Assembly (NCBI GenBank): GCA_951813255.1
Contig: OX638353.1
Coordinates: 868,001-932,000 of the forward strand
Direction of reading: 5' to 3'
DNA length: 64,000 bases
Source: an uncultured Dehalococcoidia bacterium
GTDB lineage: Bacteria; Chloroflexota; Dehalococcoidia; Lucifugimonadales; JAAXIE01
In this document: positions 15,202 to 31,704 of the stretch, one piece after another
How the letters are laid out: each line of letters begins with the position of its first letter
Position numbering within the stretch: the stretch's first letter is position 1
Notes under the pieces: generated by a model
Database searches by the model: none
Seen by the model: the letters and a program-made list of their open reading frames with translations, nothing else
What the model was told of the DNA's origin: nothing
Translations under genes and position numbers: made by a program

Positions 15202-16143
15202 CTATGCCCTGGGATGGCTCTTCTCGAACTCCTCGTGAACATGCTCGTCGGTGAGGTGAGTGTAGACCTGGGTTGTGGCCATGCTGGCGTGTCCCAGTAG
15301 GGTCTGCACATGGCGAAGGCTGGCTCCACCGCGCAGCATGTGTGTAGCGAAGCTGTGGCGCAGGGTGTGGGGCGTGATGTCTTTTTCGATGCCGCCATCC
15401 TTGGCGTAGCTTTTTATGGCAGTCCACACCCACTGACGAGTGAGACGCTCGCCGCGGCGGTTCAAGAACACTGCGTCGTCGTCCTTGCCGTTCAGCAACA
15501 CGGGGCGCGCAGTGTCCAAGTAGCCTCGTATGACATCCGAGGCATGGGGATGCATGTAGACAAGGCGCTCTTTGCCGCCCTTTCCCAGACAGCGGATGTA
15601 TCCGTCCTGCAGGTTCACATCTTCCAAGTTGAGGGAGGTGAGTTCGCTGACGCGCAGGCCGGTAGCGTAGAGCAATTCGAGCATGGCCAAGTCGCGCTGG
15701 CCTTCGACAGTGCCCCGCTTGGCAGGTTGGTCGAGCAATCTGCCAGTCTCCTCCTCGGTGAGGTGCTTGGGAAGGGTCCTGCCGACTCTGGGGGAGACCA
15801 AGAACTCGGCAGGGTTGTCCTTGAGGGTGCCCTCGTCCACCATGAAGGTGAAGAAGGACTTCAGCGCGGCCACTTTCCGGGCAGTGGTGCTGTCGCGGTA
15901 ACCCTGATTGTTGCGCAGGTGGGAAACGTACTCAGTCAGAAGGTCAAGGTCAATCTTCTGCCAGCCGTGCTTGCTCTTTCCCTTGGCCCCATTGCCATTA
16001 CCATTGCCGTTCCCGTTTCCGATTCTCGGTTGGGCGAATTCTATGAACTGTCGCAGGTCGTTCTGATAGGCGCCCAACGTGTTGCTCGGGCCTCCCCTCT
16101 CTACCACCAGGTAGTTCAGGAAAGACTCCACCTCGTCATACAT
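15202..16143 (-). CDS. XerC/XerD-like tyrosine recombinase
   Basis: 313 residues. The N-terminal SAM-like domain (1-115) is followed by the catalytic domain with all residues: R164 (TGLRVSELTSL), K188 (CLGKGGKERLV), H259 and R262 (TPHTLRHSFATHML), H285 (LLGHASMATTQVY) and Tyr 294. It is most likely the chromosome-dimer resolvase acting at dif, since length, lack of mobile neighbours and housekeeping context fit. An unusual feature is an Asn-Gly run at residues 43-52, encoded by a hexanucleotide repeat, inside the N-terminal domain. Whether it is XerC or XerD cannot be told from one protein. Confidence 0.93.
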   Translation of the reverse strand: MYDEVESFLNYLVVERGGPSNTLGAYQNDLRQFIEFAQPRIGNGNGNGNGNGAKGKSKHGWQKIDLDLLTEYVSHLRNNQGYRDSTTARKVAALKSFFTFMVDEGTLKDNPAEFLVSPRVGRTLPKHLTEEETGRLLDQPAKRGTVEGQRDLAMLELLYATGLRVSELTSLNLEDVNLQDGYIRCLGKGGKERLVYMHPHASDVIRGYLDTARPVLLNGKDDDAVFLNRRGERLTRQWVWTAIKSYAKDGGIEKDITPHTLRHSFATHMLRGGASLRHVQTLLGHASMATTQVYTHLTDEHVHEEFEKSHPRA

Positions 16144-16237
16144 CTGGTTCCCTTTCTGCTCATGACCCGCCCAGATGCTAGCAATGTGAGATGGAACCTC
16201 GCATTGCGATATCCGCGCGGAAAGGGGGGATTTTTTG

Positions 16238-16253
16238 AACTTTGACCAAAGTT
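16238..16253. promoter_or_regulatory. Palindromic operator-like site
   Basis: AACTTTG AC CAAAGTT, a perfect 7-base inverted repeat with a 2-base centre, 7 bases upstream of the -35 element of the PHP gene and in the divergent region with the xer gene. A half of similar sequence (AACTTTGGTCAA) occurs at 36707-36718 upstream of the MetE-like gene. A transcription factor site is plausible. Confidence 0.4.
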
Positions 16254-16259
16254 GCGCCG

Positions 16260-16288
16260 TTGACGCTATGAGAGGCCAGCCCTAGAAT
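16260..16288 (+). promoter_or_regulatory. Sigma70-type promoter for the PHP gene, near-leaderless
   Basis: TTGACG (16260-16265), 17-base spacer, TAGAAT (16283-16288). The expected start lies near 16295, only about 3 bases before the ATG at 16298, and there is no Shine-Dalgarno sequence. Confidence 0.6.
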
Positions 16289-16297
16289 TGCGCGGTT

Positions 16298-16990
16298 ATG
16301 GCAAAAGTGTTCGACCTGCATATACACACCACCAAGGGCAGCGGGGACAGCAATCTCTCGCCCGAAGAAATGGTGCAAGAGGCAGAGCGCCTCGGACTGA
16401 AGGGCCTATGCCTTACGGAGCACAGCGGGCCTTGGGACCGCCACGAATTCGAAGCCTTCGCACGCGAGCGCAACCTCGTGCTGATACGTGCCATGGAGGC
16501 GGAAACCGATATGGGTCACGTTCTAGCCTTTGGAGTAGACCGCTACTTGCCGGGCATGGAGCGGGCGGAAGAGATACGGCGTCATGTGGATGAAGTTGGA
16601 GGCTTCATGATCACCGCGCATCCCTTTCGAGGCATACACAATCCCCGTTCGATCGCGCGTCCCCTGCTCTACAAGTCAGGCGAGGAGTTGCCCGCCACAG
16701 TGGAGGGTGCTGCTACGCATCCCGTTTTCCGCATCGCCAATGCCGTGGAAGTGGCGAATGGTGGCACAGTGGACTCGGAGAACCGATTCGCCGTGGAGGT
16801 TGCTGAGCACCTGGGGATGCAATGCACGGGCGGTAGCGATGCCCACTCGGTGAACGGGCTGGGACGCTGCGTCACGGTCTTCCCCGACGAAATCAGCAGC
16901 GAGGCCGAGTTCCTCAAGGCGTTGAAAGAGGGCCAATACTATCCTGCTACCGGGCTGTCAGAAGGACGCCTGGTGCCCTTCACGCGTTAG
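16298..16990 (+). CDS. PHP-domain phosphoesterase
   Basis: 230 residues. It begins MAKVFDLHIHTTKGSGD, the first metal-binding PHP motif (H8, H10), with LTEHSG, a further His in TAHPFRG, and GGSDAHSVNGLG near the C-terminus as the last motif. Stand-alone PHP proteins hydrolyse phosphoesters, for example 3',5'-nucleoside bisphosphates or RNA 5' ends, using divalent metals. The promoter sits so close to the ATG that the transcript should be nearly leaderless. The DinG-like gene begins 7 bases after its stop, so the two are likely co-transcribed and may share a nucleic-acid role. Confidence 0.9.
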   Translation: MAKVFDLHIHTTKGSGDSNLSPEEMVQEAERLGLKGLCLTEHSGPWDRHEFEAFARERNLVLIRAMEAETDMGHVLAFGVDRYLPGMERAEEIRRHVDEVGGFMITAHPFRGIHNPRSIARPLLYKSGEELPATVEGAATHPVFRIANAVEVANGGTVDSENRFAVEVAEHLGMQCTGGSDAHSVNGLGRCVTVFPDEISSEAEFLKALKEGQYYPATGLSEGRLVPFTR

Positions 16991-21845: not shown

Positions 21846-22064
21846 CTAGGGATCCTGCAGACCGTCGAAACAGTCCTGGCACAGGAACACGATGGCGAGG
21901 GCTTCCTGGTGGCTGGTGACACGTCCGCATTGGGGGACGCCGGCGGTATCGCTCCATGGTTGGTGGAACTTGCCTCCGCACATCTGGCACGAGGCCACAT
22001 GGTAGTCGTCAAGCGAGTCGTTGCAAACGACGCAGGTGTCCACGTCTACATCAGGCTGCTCCAC
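21846..22064 (-). CDS. Small C4HC3-type zinc protein
   Basis: 72 residues, starting inside the last 14 bases of the tRNA nucleotidyltransferase gene. Potential ligands occur as C11-x2-C14, C26-x2-C29, H34, C46 and C62-x2-C65, eight in total, the composition of a RING/PHD-like cross-brace, although the H34 to C46 spacing is wider than in a classical PHD finger. The rest is acidic. No named family recognised. Regular spacing of the four Cys pairs and translational overlap make it a likely real gene. Possible roles are protein or nucleic-acid binding. Confidence 0.65.
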   Translation of the reverse strand: MEQPDVDVDTCVVCNDSLDDYHVASCQMCGGKFHQPWSDTAGVPQCGRVTSHQEALAIVFLCQDCFDGLQDP

Positions 22065-23349
22065 AGGCCCCCTCCATCACCCTTTGTTCCAAGAGACTTT
22101 CTATCAAAGCAATCTCCTCTTCCCGGCTGGACACCTGTCCGTCGAGTCTTGCTCGTCGTAATTCCTGGAGTATGTGACCTGTTTCTGGGCCGGGCACGAC
22201 GCCCAGATTCTTCAAATCATGCCCATTGAGCAACGGTGCGTCGAAGCGCCACTTGGTGGCGTATTGAATCAGCAGGCTTCTGGCTTGGGGCAGTCGGCAC
22301 TCATGAATTGCGGCGGTCAACGCGTGTTCGCTATACCCCTCCAACATGCCGGCTATCCTGCTCGGTTGAAGGTCCACCTCTGACTCGAGGGTCTCGGCGA
22401 CTCCGCGCAGGGCTGCGGCATCCATAACGGCGCGACGCCATTGCCCTGCCATGTTCAGGCGGGCTGCCAAGCCCTCCGCCTGTGCTGGCTGCAGGGTGTA
22501 TGCCATACGGGCTATGACAACCTCAGGGACTGGCTGACCCGTGGTCTCTGTGGCACGGGTTGCTGAAATGGTGAGTCCGGGATATATGGCATTGAGAAGC
22601 CCCAAGTTCTCCGCTCGGTGCAGAAGTGGCAGGGGCCTTTCTTCCTGCAGAATCAGCTCCAACTCGTGCCTGAGACGGTCCGCACTGAGGGTGCTCACGG
22701 CATTTTGTGCCAGGGCCTCCTGCAACAGCCGGAGGGTGTCTGGTTCGATGGTAAACCCTAGGCGCTGCTCGTACCGGACTGCGCGGAACATGCGTGTGGG
22801 GTCATCGAGGAAGCTGGCGGGATGCAGGACGCGGATGCACCTCTGCTGCAGGTCACGATGGGCACCGCAGAGGTCGATAAGCGATCCCTCGGCAGTACCC
22901 GCAAGGCACAAGGCCATGGCGTTCACTGAGAAATCGCGCCGCCACAAGTCGCTGGGCATGTCCGACGGGGACACCTGGGGAAGCGCCCCGGGCCGAGGGT
23001 AGGTCTCCTGTCGAGCGGTGGAGAAGTCGAGCCTCAGGCCATGGGTTTCGACTGTGGCGGTGCCGAAGTGGCTATGCACCGTGAGTTGGCCCCCGAGTTT
23101 CTTCGCCACCGTCGCTGCCAGTTTGGGCGCGTCGCCCTCGGTCACCAAGTCCAAGTCCAAGATGTCACGGCCCAATAGCAGGTCGCGCACCGAGCCTCCC
23201 ACTAGGTAAAGCGGGAGGTCCGCCTCGTGGGCCAAGGCTCGCACGGCCGCTAGGTTATTGGCGGCTGCGGGTGGCAGGTTCGCGTTCAGGCTGTCCAGCA
23301 GGGGAGTGGCTCCCAGGGAAGAATCAGCTATGAAGGCATTGTAGCACAC
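22051..23349 (-). CDS. CCA tRNA nucleotidyltransferase / poly(A) polymerase family
   Basis: 432 residues if the GTG at 23349 is used; the start is uncertain because no clear ribosome binding site precedes it. The class II nucleotidyltransferase head shows LYLVGGSVRDLLLGR (about 48-62), DLDLVTEGDA (metal-binding DxD), LWRRDFSVNAMAL and a neck region DPTRMFRAVRYEQRLGF. It should add or repair the 3' CCA of tRNA. C-terminally a helical body is followed by PGPETGHILQELRRARLDG, as in related bacterial enzymes. A small zinc protein is encoded just downstream with overlap. Confidence 0.9.
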   Translation of the reverse strand: MCYNAFIADSSLGATPLLDSLNANLPPAAANNLAAVRALAHEADLPLYLVGGSVRDLLLGRDILDLDLVTEGDAPKLAATVAKKLGGQLTVHSHFGTATVETHGLRLDFSTARQETYPRPGALPQVSPSDMPSDLWRRDFSVNAMALCLAGTAEGSLIDLCGAHRDLQQRCIRVLHPASFLDDPTRMFRAVRYEQRLGFTIEPDTLRLLQEALAQNAVSTLSADRLRHELELILQEERPLPLLHRAENLGLLNAIYPGLTISATRATETTGQPVPEVVIARMAYTLQPAQAEGLAARLNMAGQWRRAVMDAAALRGVAETLESEVDLQPSRIAGMLEGYSEHALTAAIHECRLPQARSLLIQYATKWRFDAPLLNGHDLKNLGVVPGPETGHILQELRRARLDGQVSSREEEIALIESLLEQRVMEGACGAA

Positions 23350-23418: not shown

Positions 23419-23447
23419 TTGACTTTTGTCAAGCGCCCGTCTAAAAT
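23419..23447 (+). promoter_or_regulatory. Sigma70-type promoter for the DsbA-like/rnc/ftsY operon
   Basis: TTGACT (23419-23424), a 17-base spacer and TAAAAT (23442-23447). The leader would be only about 18 bases and would carry AAGGAGGTG. A TTGAC-TTTT-GTCAA palindrome overlaps the -35 element and could be an operator. Confidence 0.7.
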
Positions 23448-23471
23448 CGTACCTGCAAGGAGGTGCCGCTT

Positions 23472-24086
23472 ATGGAAGAGGCCAAGGTAACCACCTACTA
23501 CGACTACCGTTGACCATACGTGTATAACGCAGCCGTGTGGCTGTCGAAAGTCGAAGAAGGATCCGGGGAGGAGCCGCCCATTGACTGGCAGCCCTTCGCC
23601 CTAGATCAAGCTAATAGCAAGGAAGGCCCCGAGTGGAAGGCTTGGGAACAGCCTGGCATGTTGTTGGCCCTGAGGGCTGGTGAAGCAGCCCGACGTCAAG
23701 GGGATGACGTATTCAAGGTCTTCTTTATGAACATGCTGAAGGCCCGCCATGAGGACCGACGCAACCTGGAAGAAGAAGATACCGTCCTCGATGTCGCCCA
23801 AGCCTCCGGATTGGATATGGCCCGCTTCCGAGAGGATCTGGCCGACAAAGAGTTGTACGAAATCATCGGCGCGAGCCACACCAAGGCTGTCGAGGAGCAC
23901 GGTGCTTTCGGCGTCCCCACCTTCGTTTTCCCCAATGGGTCTGGCACCTTCCTCAAGTCCTACGCCCCGCCCACCAACGAGGAGGCGGTGGAGATGTACG
24001 ACTCGCTGTGGAAGGTCATGGAGAACTGGAAATACGTAGGGGAGATGAAGCGGCCTCAGCCGCCCTGGCCTCAGGGTGTTTTCTAG
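23472..24086 (+). CDS. DsbA-like protein with in-frame TGA: candidate selenoprotein
   Basis: 204 residues if the TGA at 23511-23513 (codon 14) is read through. AAGGAGGTG lies 6 bases before the ATG at 23472 and a good promoter precedes that, so translation clearly begins upstream of the TGA. The N-terminus reads VTTYYDYR-TGA-PYVYNAAVWL. In DsbA/FrnE-type thioredoxin-fold proteins this is the strand-to-helix active site, where the TGA position is Cys (DYxCPxC/V). The rest is intact: helical insertion (about 60-130) and the cis-Pro loop FGVPTFVF (P149). A hairpin fitting a bacterial SECIS follows at 23529-23544. I infer selenocysteine at residue 14. Alternatives are a TGC-to-TGA sequencing error, or initiation at the GTG 23520 giving an N-terminally truncated protein. 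The stop overlaps rnc by 11 bases. Confidence 0.75.
23511..23544 (+). promoter_or_regulatory. Recoding TGA and bSECIS-like hairpin
   Basis: TGA at 23511-23513. The downstream stem is GCAGCC (23529-23534) with GGCTGT (23539-23544), five Watson-Crick pairs and one G-T, closing a GTGT loop (23535-23538). The loop begins 21 bases after the TGA and has G as its first base. Commonly used bacterial SECIS criteria are a small apical loop about 16-37 bases after the UGA with G among its first two bases on a stem of at least 4 pairs; all are met. Confidence 0.65.
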
Positions 24087-24801
24087 TCTCAGACGTAAGC
24101 GTCCTCAATCGACGGCCCTTGAGCGGAGTCTGAATATACGCTTCAAGGACCGTCGTTTGCTGGAAGAGGCCCTAGCACACCCGTCGTACCAGAACGAGAA
24201 CCCAGATTTTGCTCTCGGCTCCTATGAGCGGCTGGAGTTCTTGGGAGATGCAGTGGTGCAACTCGCAATAACGCGCGAGTTGCACCATTTTTTGCCGGAA
24301 ATGGACGAGGGCCAGCTTACTCGCCTGCGCTCGAATCTGGTCAAGGGCACGAGCTTGGCCATAGTCGCCCGCAGTATTGGGTTGGGCAACCACCTATACC
24401 TCGGAAAAGGGGAGGAGTCCAACGGTGGCCGTGAGCGCGACTCCATCCTTGCTGCGTCCTTCGAGTCTCTGGCCGGAGCAGTGTTCGTGGACCGGGGCTA
24501 CGATGAAGCGCGCAAGTTCGTACTCCGCGTGATGCAGGGTTACCTCTCTGACCAGATCGAGGGGGGCGTGCCCGAAGACCCCAAGTCCCTATTGCAGAAG
24601 GAGACCCAACGCAAGGGCTGGGGGCGACCCCAATACCATACAGTGAAGACCTTTGGACCGAGCCATGCCCGGCTGTTTCGCGTGGAGGTAGAGGTGAAGG
24701 GCGAGGTCATCGGCCACGGCACAGGGCCTCGCAAGGCCGAGGCGGAAAGCAGGGCTGCCCGCCAAGGTCTGAGGCATTTGGGGGTCCGTGGCCAGCGATA
24801 G
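24076..24801 (+). CDS. rnc: Ribonuclease III
   Basis: 241 residues from a GTG that overlaps the end of the DsbA-like gene. It processes double-stranded RNA including rRNA precursors. The signature ERLEFLGDAV (51-60) carries the acidic active site. The second acidic cluster is in LAASFESLAGAVFVDRGYD (about 130-148). A dsRNA-binding domain fills about 160-235 (DPKSLLQKETQRKG, GHGTGPRKAEAESRAAR). Length and domain order are normal. It is followed after 18 bases by ftsY, an order seen in many bacteria. Confidence 0.96.
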   Translation: MFSSLRRKRPQSTALERSLNIRFKDRRLLEEALAHPSYQNENPDFALGSYERLEFLGDAVVQLAITRELHHFLPEMDEGQLTRLRSNLVKGTSLAIVARSIGLGNHLYLGKGEESNGGRERDSILAASFESLAGAVFVDRGYDEARKFVLRVMQGYLSDQIEGGVPEDPKSLLQKETQRKGWGRPQYHTVKTFGPSHARLFRVEVEVKGEVIGHGTGPRKAEAESRAARQGLRHLGVRGQR

Positions 24802-24819: not shown

Positions 24820-25830
24820 ATGCTTCGTTTTCTGAGGCGCGACCGTTCCAGTGAAGAGAGCCGGCAAGCGGAGGCTGAGAAGACCCGGCACGCGGTGGAA
24901 AAGAGCCGCCAGAGTTGGTTTGGGCGCCTTCGCTCCCTTCTGTCAGGTTCTCATCTTGATGATTCCGTCTGGGACGAACTGGAAGAGGTCCTGATCTCTG
25001 CGGACGTGGGTGTCGACACGGCCCTTGCGTTGGTGGAAAAGCTGAAGCAACAGGCGAACCAAGGCGGTCTCAACGAGCCTGACCATGTGTGGCAGGCGTT
25101 GCGGCGCGAGCTTATCGCCCTGTTGGAGGAGGAGCCCGCGGGGCCGGTCCCAGGCTCAACGACTCCGCCGGCTGCTGCCCCCTCCTTAACGGGCCTCTCC
25201 TCGACGGGCCTCCCCACAACTATCCTGATGGTTGGAGTCAACGGCGTTGGCAAGACCACCAGCATCGCCAAGCTGGCCCATCATTTCAAGAGCCAAGGCA
25301 GCAAGGTGTTGCTGGGGGCGGGCGACACCTTTCGGGCGGCTGCCATTGATCAGCTTCAGTTATGGGGACGTACTGTCGGGGCGGACGTGATTGCACACCA
25401 ACAGGGAGGAGATCCGGGGGCCGTGGTGTACGACGCCTTCGAAGCTGCCCGTGCCCGCTCCGCGGATGTGCTGATCATCGATACTGCGGGACGTCTCCAC
25501 ACCAAGTCGAACCTGATGGATGAGTTGAGCAAGATACGACGGGTGTTGGGGCGACTTGATCCCTCAGCTCCCCACGAGGTGCTGCTGACCCTAGATGCGA
25601 CCACTGGTCAGAACGGGTTGACACAAGCCCGGCAGTTCACGGAAGCGGTCAACTGCACCGGCATATTTCTAGCCAAGCTGGATGGTACGGCCCGAGGGGG
25701 CATTGTCCTCGCCATCAGTCGGGAGTTGGGCCTTCCCATTCTCTTCATCGGCACGGGCGAGCACGCCGAAGACATCGCCCCCTTCGACGCCGAACAGTTT
25801 GTTGATGCCCTGCTAGCACCGTCGGTGTAG
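24820..25830 (+). CDS. ftsY: Signal recognition particle receptor FtsY
   Basis: 336 residues, GGAGG upstream. GTPase that docks ribosome-SRP complexes at the membrane. A short charged N-terminus and the N domain (about 30-105) are followed by a Pro/Ser/Thr-rich joint and the G domain: P-loop GVNGVGKTT (139-147), [33 protein letters not shown] and the closing loop [16 protein letters not shown]. The acidic A domain found in E. coli is missing, as is usual outside proteobacteria. It ends the DsbA-like/rnc/ftsY operon. Confidence 0.97.
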
Positions 25831-29982: not shown

Positions 29983-30564
29983 CTAGCGCGGGCGGACCCA
30001 GCTTTCGGAGATGGCGAGGGCGGCGGTGCTGGAGGCGTGGCCGCCGCGTTCCTGGGGCTGGGGGAGTCCTGAGGCCTGCTGGCCGTTGACCGTCAGGCGT
30101 GCGCCCTTGGCGGGTATGAAGCAGCTGTAGACGCCGTGGGGGCCTGTTGGGCGCGTGCCGGCTTCGACTCGGACGATGAACGGGTCGATGAAGTCGTACC
30201 AAGTCATCGATATTTCTGCGTCGTCGGAGCTGATGTACTCGGTCCAGAAGGAGGTTGAGTCGCCAGCGCGGGAGAAAGTGGCCTCGATTACGGGGATGTT
30301 GGGGTCGGCGTTGGGTGGGTTTATCTGGGATTCGAGTTCTTCCTGTAGCCAGCGGGCCAAGGCGATGTTGTCGGAGTAGATGCGAATCTGCCCGTCGGTC
30401 AGCTCGCTCTGCAGAAGCAGGATGTGGCCCATGCCAGCTGGGGAGAACCAAACACGCCAGTGGCTGGCGCGGGTGGTGAAGTCGTCACCGCCTTGGGAGA
30501 GGCGGATAAAGGAGTTCTCTCCGGTGAGGCGTACTTCATTGGGGTCTGTGGGTGACATGGTCAT
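29983..30564 (-). CDS. Hypothetical protein
   Basis: 193 residues with a good site (AAGGAGG) before the start. Mainly beta-like sequence: ASHWRVWFSPAGMGHILLLQ, IRIYSDNIALARWLQEELE, TEYISSDDAEISMTWYDF, FIVRVEAGTRPTGPHGVYSC. There is no signal peptide, membrane segment or metal motif that I can assign. It follows the LLM oxidoreductase gene after 48 bases on the same strand, so it is probably in the same operon and may be an accessory to that enzyme. No family recognised. Confidence 0.65.
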   Translation of the reverse strand: MTMSPTDPNEVRLTGENSFIRLSQGGDDFTTRASHWRVWFSPAGMGHILLLQSELTDGQIRIYSDNIALARWLQEELESQINPPNADPNIPVIEATFSRAGDSTSFWTEYISSDDAEISMTWYDFIDPFIVRVEAGTRPTGPHGVYSCFIPAKGARLTVNGQQASGLPQPQERGGHASSTAALAISESWVRPR

Positions 30565-30612
30565 TTTGTACCTCCTTGTGTTGGAGCGCGGATTGGTGCG
30601 GGGACTTGCGTG

Positions 30613-31704
30613 TCAGCCAGGTGGGGGTGGGAGTAGGTCGCGGAGTTCGGGGGCTATGTGCTTCATGAAGAGCTCCATGGACTTCCAGCCTTTTTCGGGT
30701 GGGTCCCAGTCCTGGGTGAGTTGGAGGAGGGTCCCGAAGCCTCCGACGCGATCATATACCGCGCGGATGGCCTTGAGGCAGTGGTCGGGGTCGCCGACGA
30801 CCCAGCGGTTGTCCATGAGGTAGGGGACGGTGAGGGCGTCGTCGGGCATGGACTCGTCGTCCTTCATGAGGTCGAACATGCCCATGCGGGAGAAGAGGGG
30901 GAAGAAGTAGTCGTCGAAGGAGCGGCCCATGCCGTGGTTGAGGACGTCGTTGCGGGCTTCCTCGGTGGTCTCGGCGACGTGGATGTCGAGGCAGACGCGC
31001 CATTCGCGCTTGTCGGCGACGTGTCCGCCCTTGGCGGCGCCACGCTGGTAGGCTTCCCAGTGGGTGTGGAGGTGTTCGAGGGGGAGGATGTCGGTGGTGA
31101 GGGGTATCCATCCGTGTTCGCCGGCCCACTCGATGGTGGAGGAGTTCTTGCTGACGCCGGCGACGCCGATGGGCGGGTGGGGCTGCTGGTAGGGTTTGAG
31201 CCAGAGGCCGAGACCGATATCGGGGAAGGGTGATGTGGGCTTCACCTGATAGAACTCGCCGTTGTATTCGAAGGGGCCGTCGGACTCCCAAAGTTTAAGT
31301 ACGCAGTCGAGGACTTCGGCGGCGCGGGCGTGGCGCTTGTCCTCTTCCACCTCGAAGAGTTCGAATTCGGTGGGGACGCCACCGGTTCCGACGCCGAGGT
31401 AAAAGCGTCCTCCGGAGAGGTGGTCGAGCATGGCTAGGCGGTGGGCCAGCATCTTGGGGTCGTGGAGCTGGAGGAGGATTACTCCGGTGCCGAGCCTGAT
31501 GTTCTGGGTCTTAGCGAAGGCTTGGGCGATGAAGAGGTCGGGGGCGGGGAGGTTTTCCCAAGGGATGGTGTAGTGCTCACCGATCCAGCCTTCGTGGTAG
31601 CCGAGTTGATCGGCGGTGATGACGGTCTGCATGTCCTCTTTGATGGTGCGCTGCAAGTCCTTGGAGGGATGGTGGACGGGCATCATGAAGAAACCGAAGT
31701 TCAT
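30613..31704 (-). CDS. LLM-class flavin-dependent monooxygenase
   Basis: 363 residues, AGGAGG before the ATG. Luciferase-like TIM barrel of the longer type: MNFGFFMMPVHHP, GYHEGWIGEHYTIPWE, IRLGTGVILLQLHDP, GGRFYLGVGTGGVPTEFELF and HPPIGVAGVSKNS. The WxGEHH/Y region and the GVGxG loop are typical of FMNH2-using two-component monooxygenases that attack terpenes, alkanals or sulfonates. The unusual upstream region (31731-32115) contains a repeat array that may regulate it. The hypothetical protein at 29983 is probably co-transcribed. Confidence 0.9.
   Translation of the reverse strand: MNFGFFMMPVHHPSKDLQRTIKEDMQTVITADQLGYHEGWIGEHYTIPWENLPAPDLFIAQAFAKTQNIRLGTGVILLQLHDPKMLAHRLAMLDHLSGGRFYLGVGTGGVPTEFELFEVEEDKRHARAAEVLDCVLKLWESDGPFEYNGEFYQVKPTSPFPDIGLGLWLKPYQQPHPPIGVAGVSKNSSTIEWAGEHGWIPLTTDILPLEHLHTHWEAYQRGAAKGGHVADKREWRVCLDIHVAETTEEARNDVLNHGMGRSFDDYFFPLFSRMGMFDLMKDDESMPDDALTVPYLMDNRWVVGDPDHCLKAIRAVYDRVGGFGTLLQLTQDWDPPEKGWKSMELFMKHIAPELRDLLPPPPG

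Follow-up and report, generated by a model that had tools for sequence, protein, structure and literature searches.

A DsbA-fold gene of a Dehalococcoidia bacterium in which an in-frame TGA very probably encodes selenocysteine

We examined a 64,000-nucleotide stretch of DNA (hereafter the window; bases 868001 to 932000 of a single-contig genome of 3.4 Mb) from an uncultured Dehalococcoidia bacterium. A reading frame in this window begins at an ATG, meets a TGA at codon 14, and then stays open for 190 more codons up to a TAG at 24084-24086. Is this TGA an early stop, or is it read as selenocysteine (Sec)? A first-pass annotation of the sequence had proposed selenocysteine insertion, and that proposal is strongly supported here by the Sec machinery of the genome, by a TGA/Cys column that recurs among homologues, and by a downstream hairpin that is constrained in the Sec forms only. 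Based on these comparisons of sequences, the UGA at codon 14 very probably inserts selenocysteine, and the apparent early stop would not be a break in the gene.

The reading frame, its upstream signals and its neighbors

The features of the locus are listed in Table 1. The promoter, the strong Shine-Dalgarno sequence, the start codon, the TGA, and the open frame that follows it were all found in the sequence where the first-pass annotation had placed them. Similar signals were found in relatives: the homologue in relative L016 lies downstream of a TTGACT-17-TACAAT promoter, and the core AGGAGGT of the ribosome-binding site is kept in both L016 and L017. The order cca - gene - rnc - ftsY is kept in the taxonomic order to which the window belongs. 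These neighbors are housekeeping genes and do not indicate a pathway.

Table 1. Positions of the features at the locus within the window, with the evidence for each
Feature	Position	Strand	Details and evidence
DsbA-fold gene, very probably a selenoprotein	23472..24086	+	ATG start at 23472; 204 residues, Sec at residue 14, stop TAG; translation, Pfam, AlphaFold, Foldseek, homologues
In-frame TGA (codon 14), very probably read as selenocysteine	23511..23513	+	Read directly from the sequence; active-site residue of D-Y-R-U-P-Y-V; homologue codons and Sec machinery
Sigma-70-type promoter TTGACT-17-TAAAAT	23419..23447	+	TTGACT 23419-23424, 17-nt spacer, TAAAAT 23442-23447; sequence; like arrangement in relative L016
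Ribosome-binding site AAGGAGGTG	23457..23465	+	Sequence; 5' of the ATG; AGGAGGT kept in L016 and L017
Truncated ORF from standard gene calling	23520..24086	+	GTG start just past the active site; mechanical ORF list
Bacterial SECIS-like hairpin	23528..23546	+	Stem 23530-23534 with 23539-23543, loop GUGU 23535-23538
CCA-adding enzyme / poly(A) polymerase family	22051..23349	-	Conserved upstream neighbor; Pfam PolyA_pol; synteny in same order
Ribonuclease III (rnc)	24076..24801	+	Conserved downstream neighbor; Pfam Ribonuclease_3 and dsrm; synteny
SRP receptor FtsY	24820..25830	+	Conserved downstream neighbor; Pfam SRP54 GTPase; synteny

Standard gene calling would start this gene at the GTG at 23520, which would shorten the DsbA-like protein and lose its active site. 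The ORF list speaks for a late start, in which translation begins at that GTG or beyond and the codons upstream are non-coding. However, the 13 codons upstream of the TGA match strand beta-1 and the beginning of the fold in homologues, and the Asp three residues before the Sec/Cys position (D11), the Sec/Cys at position 14 itself, and the Pro directly after it (P15) are invariant in the homologue alignment. A late start would delete both beta-1 and the active site, and the Shine-Dalgarno sequence precedes the ATG. Given the alignment of the upstream codons and the position of the Shine-Dalgarno sequence, we rejected the late start, to which we attach next to no probability.

Codon 14 among homologues and the selenocysteine machinery

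A scan of GTDB genomes yielded nine close Chloroflexota relatives, all nine of which had TGA at exactly codon 14. Two wider searches added further homologues, one covering 400 genomes from the phylum and the other 393 from the class. Among 68 Chloroflexota homologues, including the window gene, the codon at this column was always one of three at the DNA level: TGA in 47, TGC in 16, or TGT in 5. The in-frame UGA is thus aligned with the Cys of the remaining 21 homologues, as expected of a bacterial selenoprotein. These 68 contain some genes that were fetched twice, and sequences that are distinct over the hairpin region number 43 with TGA and 21 with Cys. Up to the point where the match ends at the C-terminus, the aligned coding regions of the 68 homologues contained no further stop. 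Match-internal stops reported in four Cys-form genomes (L046, L050, L053, and L057) sit at that C-terminal end, and all four have a Cys codon at the active site.

The first-pass annotation had judged that a chance stop would be unlikely to strike this very codon, had suggested aligning homologues at the column, and had named reads with TGC or TGT as evidence that would speak against Sec. The column agrees with its judgment. A recent nonsense change or a sequencing fault in a Cys-encoding gene would need only one base (TGC or TGT to TGA), but more than two-thirds of the homologues, drawn from many separate assemblies, share this TGA, and their aligned coding regions contain no further internal stop short of the C-terminal end. 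Moreover, the protein past the TGA is intact and well conserved, and the promoter and Shine-Dalgarno sequence are conserved in L016. Finding the TGA at this codon in one independent assembly after another excludes a read error; this recurrence refutes the reading as a pseudogene or read error, whose probability we consider negligible.

The genome that holds the window encodes all four components of the Sec machinery that the first-pass annotation had proposed to look for. We found a tRNA-Sec with anticodon tca (70.3 bits), SelA (455 bits, E=1.7e-136), SelB (345.8 bits, above its cut-off), and SelD (E=7e-118), the last in two copies that each have their own in-frame TGA (HCAG-U-AAK). The two SelD genes (L028 and L029; G000:C1:3386799-3387722 and 15765-16688) lie near opposite ends of the contig, and the DNA around them is about 95% identical over 3.9 kb. 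This pair reflects a segmental duplication of recent date or, alternatively, a contig end assembled from two strain variants, and the contamination estimate of the genome (7.7%) may be linked to it.

We also considered whether UGA is recoded as Cys or Trp, generally or locally, without any use of selenium. The fact that homologues without TGA carry Cys would fit such recoding. Against it, 18 of the window's 52 long, non-overlapping ORFs end in TGA, which is therefore an ordinary stop elsewhere, the genome encodes a dedicated tRNA-Sec together with SelA, SelB, and SelD, and two genomes of the same order that lack SelA and SelB use Cys codons. We rejected recoding on account of the normal TGA stops and the dedicated Sec machinery, and regard it as very improbable. 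One other in-frame TGA in the window was set aside: a luciferase-like monooxygenase gene on the minus strand (29983-31704) ends in a TGA at 30613-30615, past which the frame stays open for 209 further codons that have no Pfam match. This open frame is probably a separate gene that starts from an internal ATG, so that there would be two adjacent genes.

Exchange between Sec and Cys appears to have been repeated, with about 8 changes on a quick tree, at least 5 of which are forced by well-supported branches. A full SelA was found in 37 of 38 TGA-form genomes versus 16 of 21 Cys-form genomes (Fisher P = 0.018, with relatedness among genomes ignored). The lone TGA-form genome in which SelA was not found, G420, is a 71% complete assembly, and SelB is present there. 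The two same-order genomes mentioned above (L038 and L039) have Cys orthologues at the same cca - gene - rnc - ftsY locus, and a search for SelA and SelB found neither in them. Loss of the Sec machinery with replacement of Sec by Cys would be expected to leave such a pattern. The Cys orthologues of these two small genomes sit on very long branches (1.29 changes per column for L038 and 0.97 for L039), which possibly reflect faster evolution after Sec loss or an acceleration across the genome. The orthologues at this locus form a natural set, some with Sec and some with Cys, in genomes that have or lack the Sec machinery, and they offer a clean system in which to ask why Sec is kept or lost.

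A hairpin downstream of the UGA

A bacterial SECIS element is taken here as a hairpin right after the UGA with an early G in its apical loop, about 16 to 37 nt from the UGA. The window gene has such a hairpin, whose GUGU loop starts 21 nt past the UGA. The first-pass annotation had described this hairpin and its loop correctly but had counted six pairs; there are five contiguous pairs and two outer pairs across a bulged U. Across the Sec forms as a set the hairpin is under constraint; in one sub-clade none is clear.

We compared pairing at a fixed place after the UGA against shuffles that preserve the protein and its codon usage. In this position-specific test, z was 11.8 for the 43 distinct TGA sequences and 8.7 when 22 clade representatives were used, against -0.8 for the 21 Cys sequences; these values are not to be read as probabilities, as the sequences are related and three registers were picked after inspection. 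All five pairs of the exact window register were present in 20 of 42 TGA sequences (the window being left out; null mean, 3.2; max, 10) and in 0 of 21 Cys sequences. These patterns in the aligned sequences strongly suggest that the hairpin is under synonymous constraint in the TGA forms only. Further, the outer pairs vary with pairing retained in many sequences (U-A, C-G, or G-C at 15-32; G-C or U-A at 16-31). A test based on energy alone, in which hairpins at various distances past the UGA were compared with synonymous shuffles, did not separate Sec from Cys forms (mean z, -0.63 for TGA and -0.35 for Cys), and this test is uninformative probably because the encoded AAVWL already favors a hairpin. 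A search of the region against Rfam returned nothing meaningful.

The hairpin is not uniform across the clades. In one SAR202 sub-clade, the register is shifted by one base and has 7 pairs with the loop AUUUG or AGUUG. The loop AUUUG has no early G, and the sequences that use it are close kin of L021-L024 and L063-L066. The latter, which form a SAR202 clade and carry the active-site TGA, have no clear hairpin 20 to 21 nt downstream; their SECIS may lie elsewhere or be differently shaped.

Fold, known relatives and likely activity

With the TGA read through, the protein matched the Pfam DSBA family (PF01323) with E=9.4e-15 and 55.3 bits (cut-off, 25.6). The AlphaFold model, built with ten alignment rows, has a DsbA-type thioredoxin fold (pLDDT, 81.8) in which Sec14 stands at the N-terminal start of helix 1, where DsbA-like proteins have their nucleophilic Cys. 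The profile match and the thioredoxin fold with its helical insertion place the protein in the DsbA-fold superfamily. The first-pass annotation had noted that the U-P-Y-V site has no second Cys, which holds for the entire protein: no Cys was found anywhere in it. Likewise, 34 of the 47 Sec forms have no Cys besides the Sec. We saw no signal peptide by inspection; the N-terminus, MEEAKVTTYYDYR, enters strand beta-1 at residue 6.

The annotation as a DsbA/FrnE-type protein stands for the DsbA fold, but "FrnE-type" is approximate, as among solved structures the closest is that of DR2335, a single-Cys protein of Deinococcus radiodurans (PDB 7dk9 and 7dka). DR2335 was the best match both in Foldseek (E=8e-13) and by sequence profile (E=1.8e-23). 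It has a single active-site Cys (C-P-Y-A) where the window protein has Sec, and the two are only 26% identical. The mycothiol-dependent nitroreductase Rv2466c is another neighbor with a DsbA-like fold. Rv2466c has a CxxC site, and the window protein scored below the cut-off of the corresponding family (PF22234; 19.6 versus 27 bits). It also differs from classical DsbA, having U-P-Y-V in place of CxxC and, by inspection, no export signal. FrnE shares with it a cytoplasmic DsbA-like fold. DR2335 is predicted to be cytoplasmic and has no known function, while FrnE has a CxxC and often also a C-terminal CxxxxC (PMC8945050), both of which are absent from the Cys-free window protein.

Two forms of DsbA-like selenoproteins have been described. 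The form known since the Sargasso Sea survey (form 1) has the motif UxxC (PMC1088965); the window protein shares with it the Sec at the N-terminal active-site position but has U-P-Y-V and no resolving Cys. Form 2, with the motif DxxUP, is listed in Table 1 of a 2026 review (PMC13188914, citing PMC5029168). The window gene has the PF01323 domain and the D-x-x-U-P motif (D11-Y-R-U14-P15) of form 2 and likewise no second Cys in the motif, and by this match of domain and motif description it probably belongs there. In contrast to the window gene, the form 2 representative MDP6049977.1 is also labelled crotonase/enoyl-CoA hydratase. Alternatively, it is possible, if rather doubtful, that the gene represents a family distinct from form 2: a cytoplasmic, Cys-free monoselenol DsbA-fold enzyme at the fixed cca - gene - rnc - ftsY locus of SAR202-type Chloroflexota, with repeated Sec/Cys switching that in some lineages accompanies loss of the Sec machinery. 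NCBIfam contained no model for the DsbA-like Sec family of the window gene, a literature search for SAR202 and selenoproteins together found no paper among those covered, and the main text of the deep-Sep paper, the part consulted, mentions neither DsbA nor Chloroflexi. Probably, then, the gene adds a member to a kind of DsbA-like protein that is already known, and it would document selenium use for a conserved gene of SAR202-type Chloroflexota.

The absence of Cys from the protein excludes a mechanism in which a single chain supplies both thiols, and an external thiol would have to perform the resolution. A redox role is somewhat favored over other activities, and the likeliest activity is that of a monoselenol oxidoreductase working in the cytoplasm, because there is neither a signal peptide nor another Cys. 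As our best inference of the mechanism, SelB and tRNA-Sec would decode the UGA with help from the hairpin downstream, and the selenolate of Sec14 would attack a disulfide, peroxide, or electrophile. The selenosulfide so formed would then need an external partner for its resolution, either a low-molecular-weight thiol or a thioredoxin-like protein.

Another activity for what would still be a selenoprotein is that of an enzyme like GST kappa or 2-hydroxychromene-2-carboxylate (HCCA) isomerase, with Sec as the nucleophile or a thiol-activating group. Foldseek and profile matches to human GST kappa and to HCCA isomerase are consistent with this, and these families use no CxxC pair. However, the closest matches are DR2335 and Rv2466c instead, and Sec/Cys exchange at such an active-site position is typical of redox catalysis; we consider a GST-kappa- or isomerase-like activity unlikely. 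For the monoselenol oxidoreductase that we prefer, the same set of Sec and Cys orthologues is suited to asking how a Cys-free enzyme with a single selenol is resolved.
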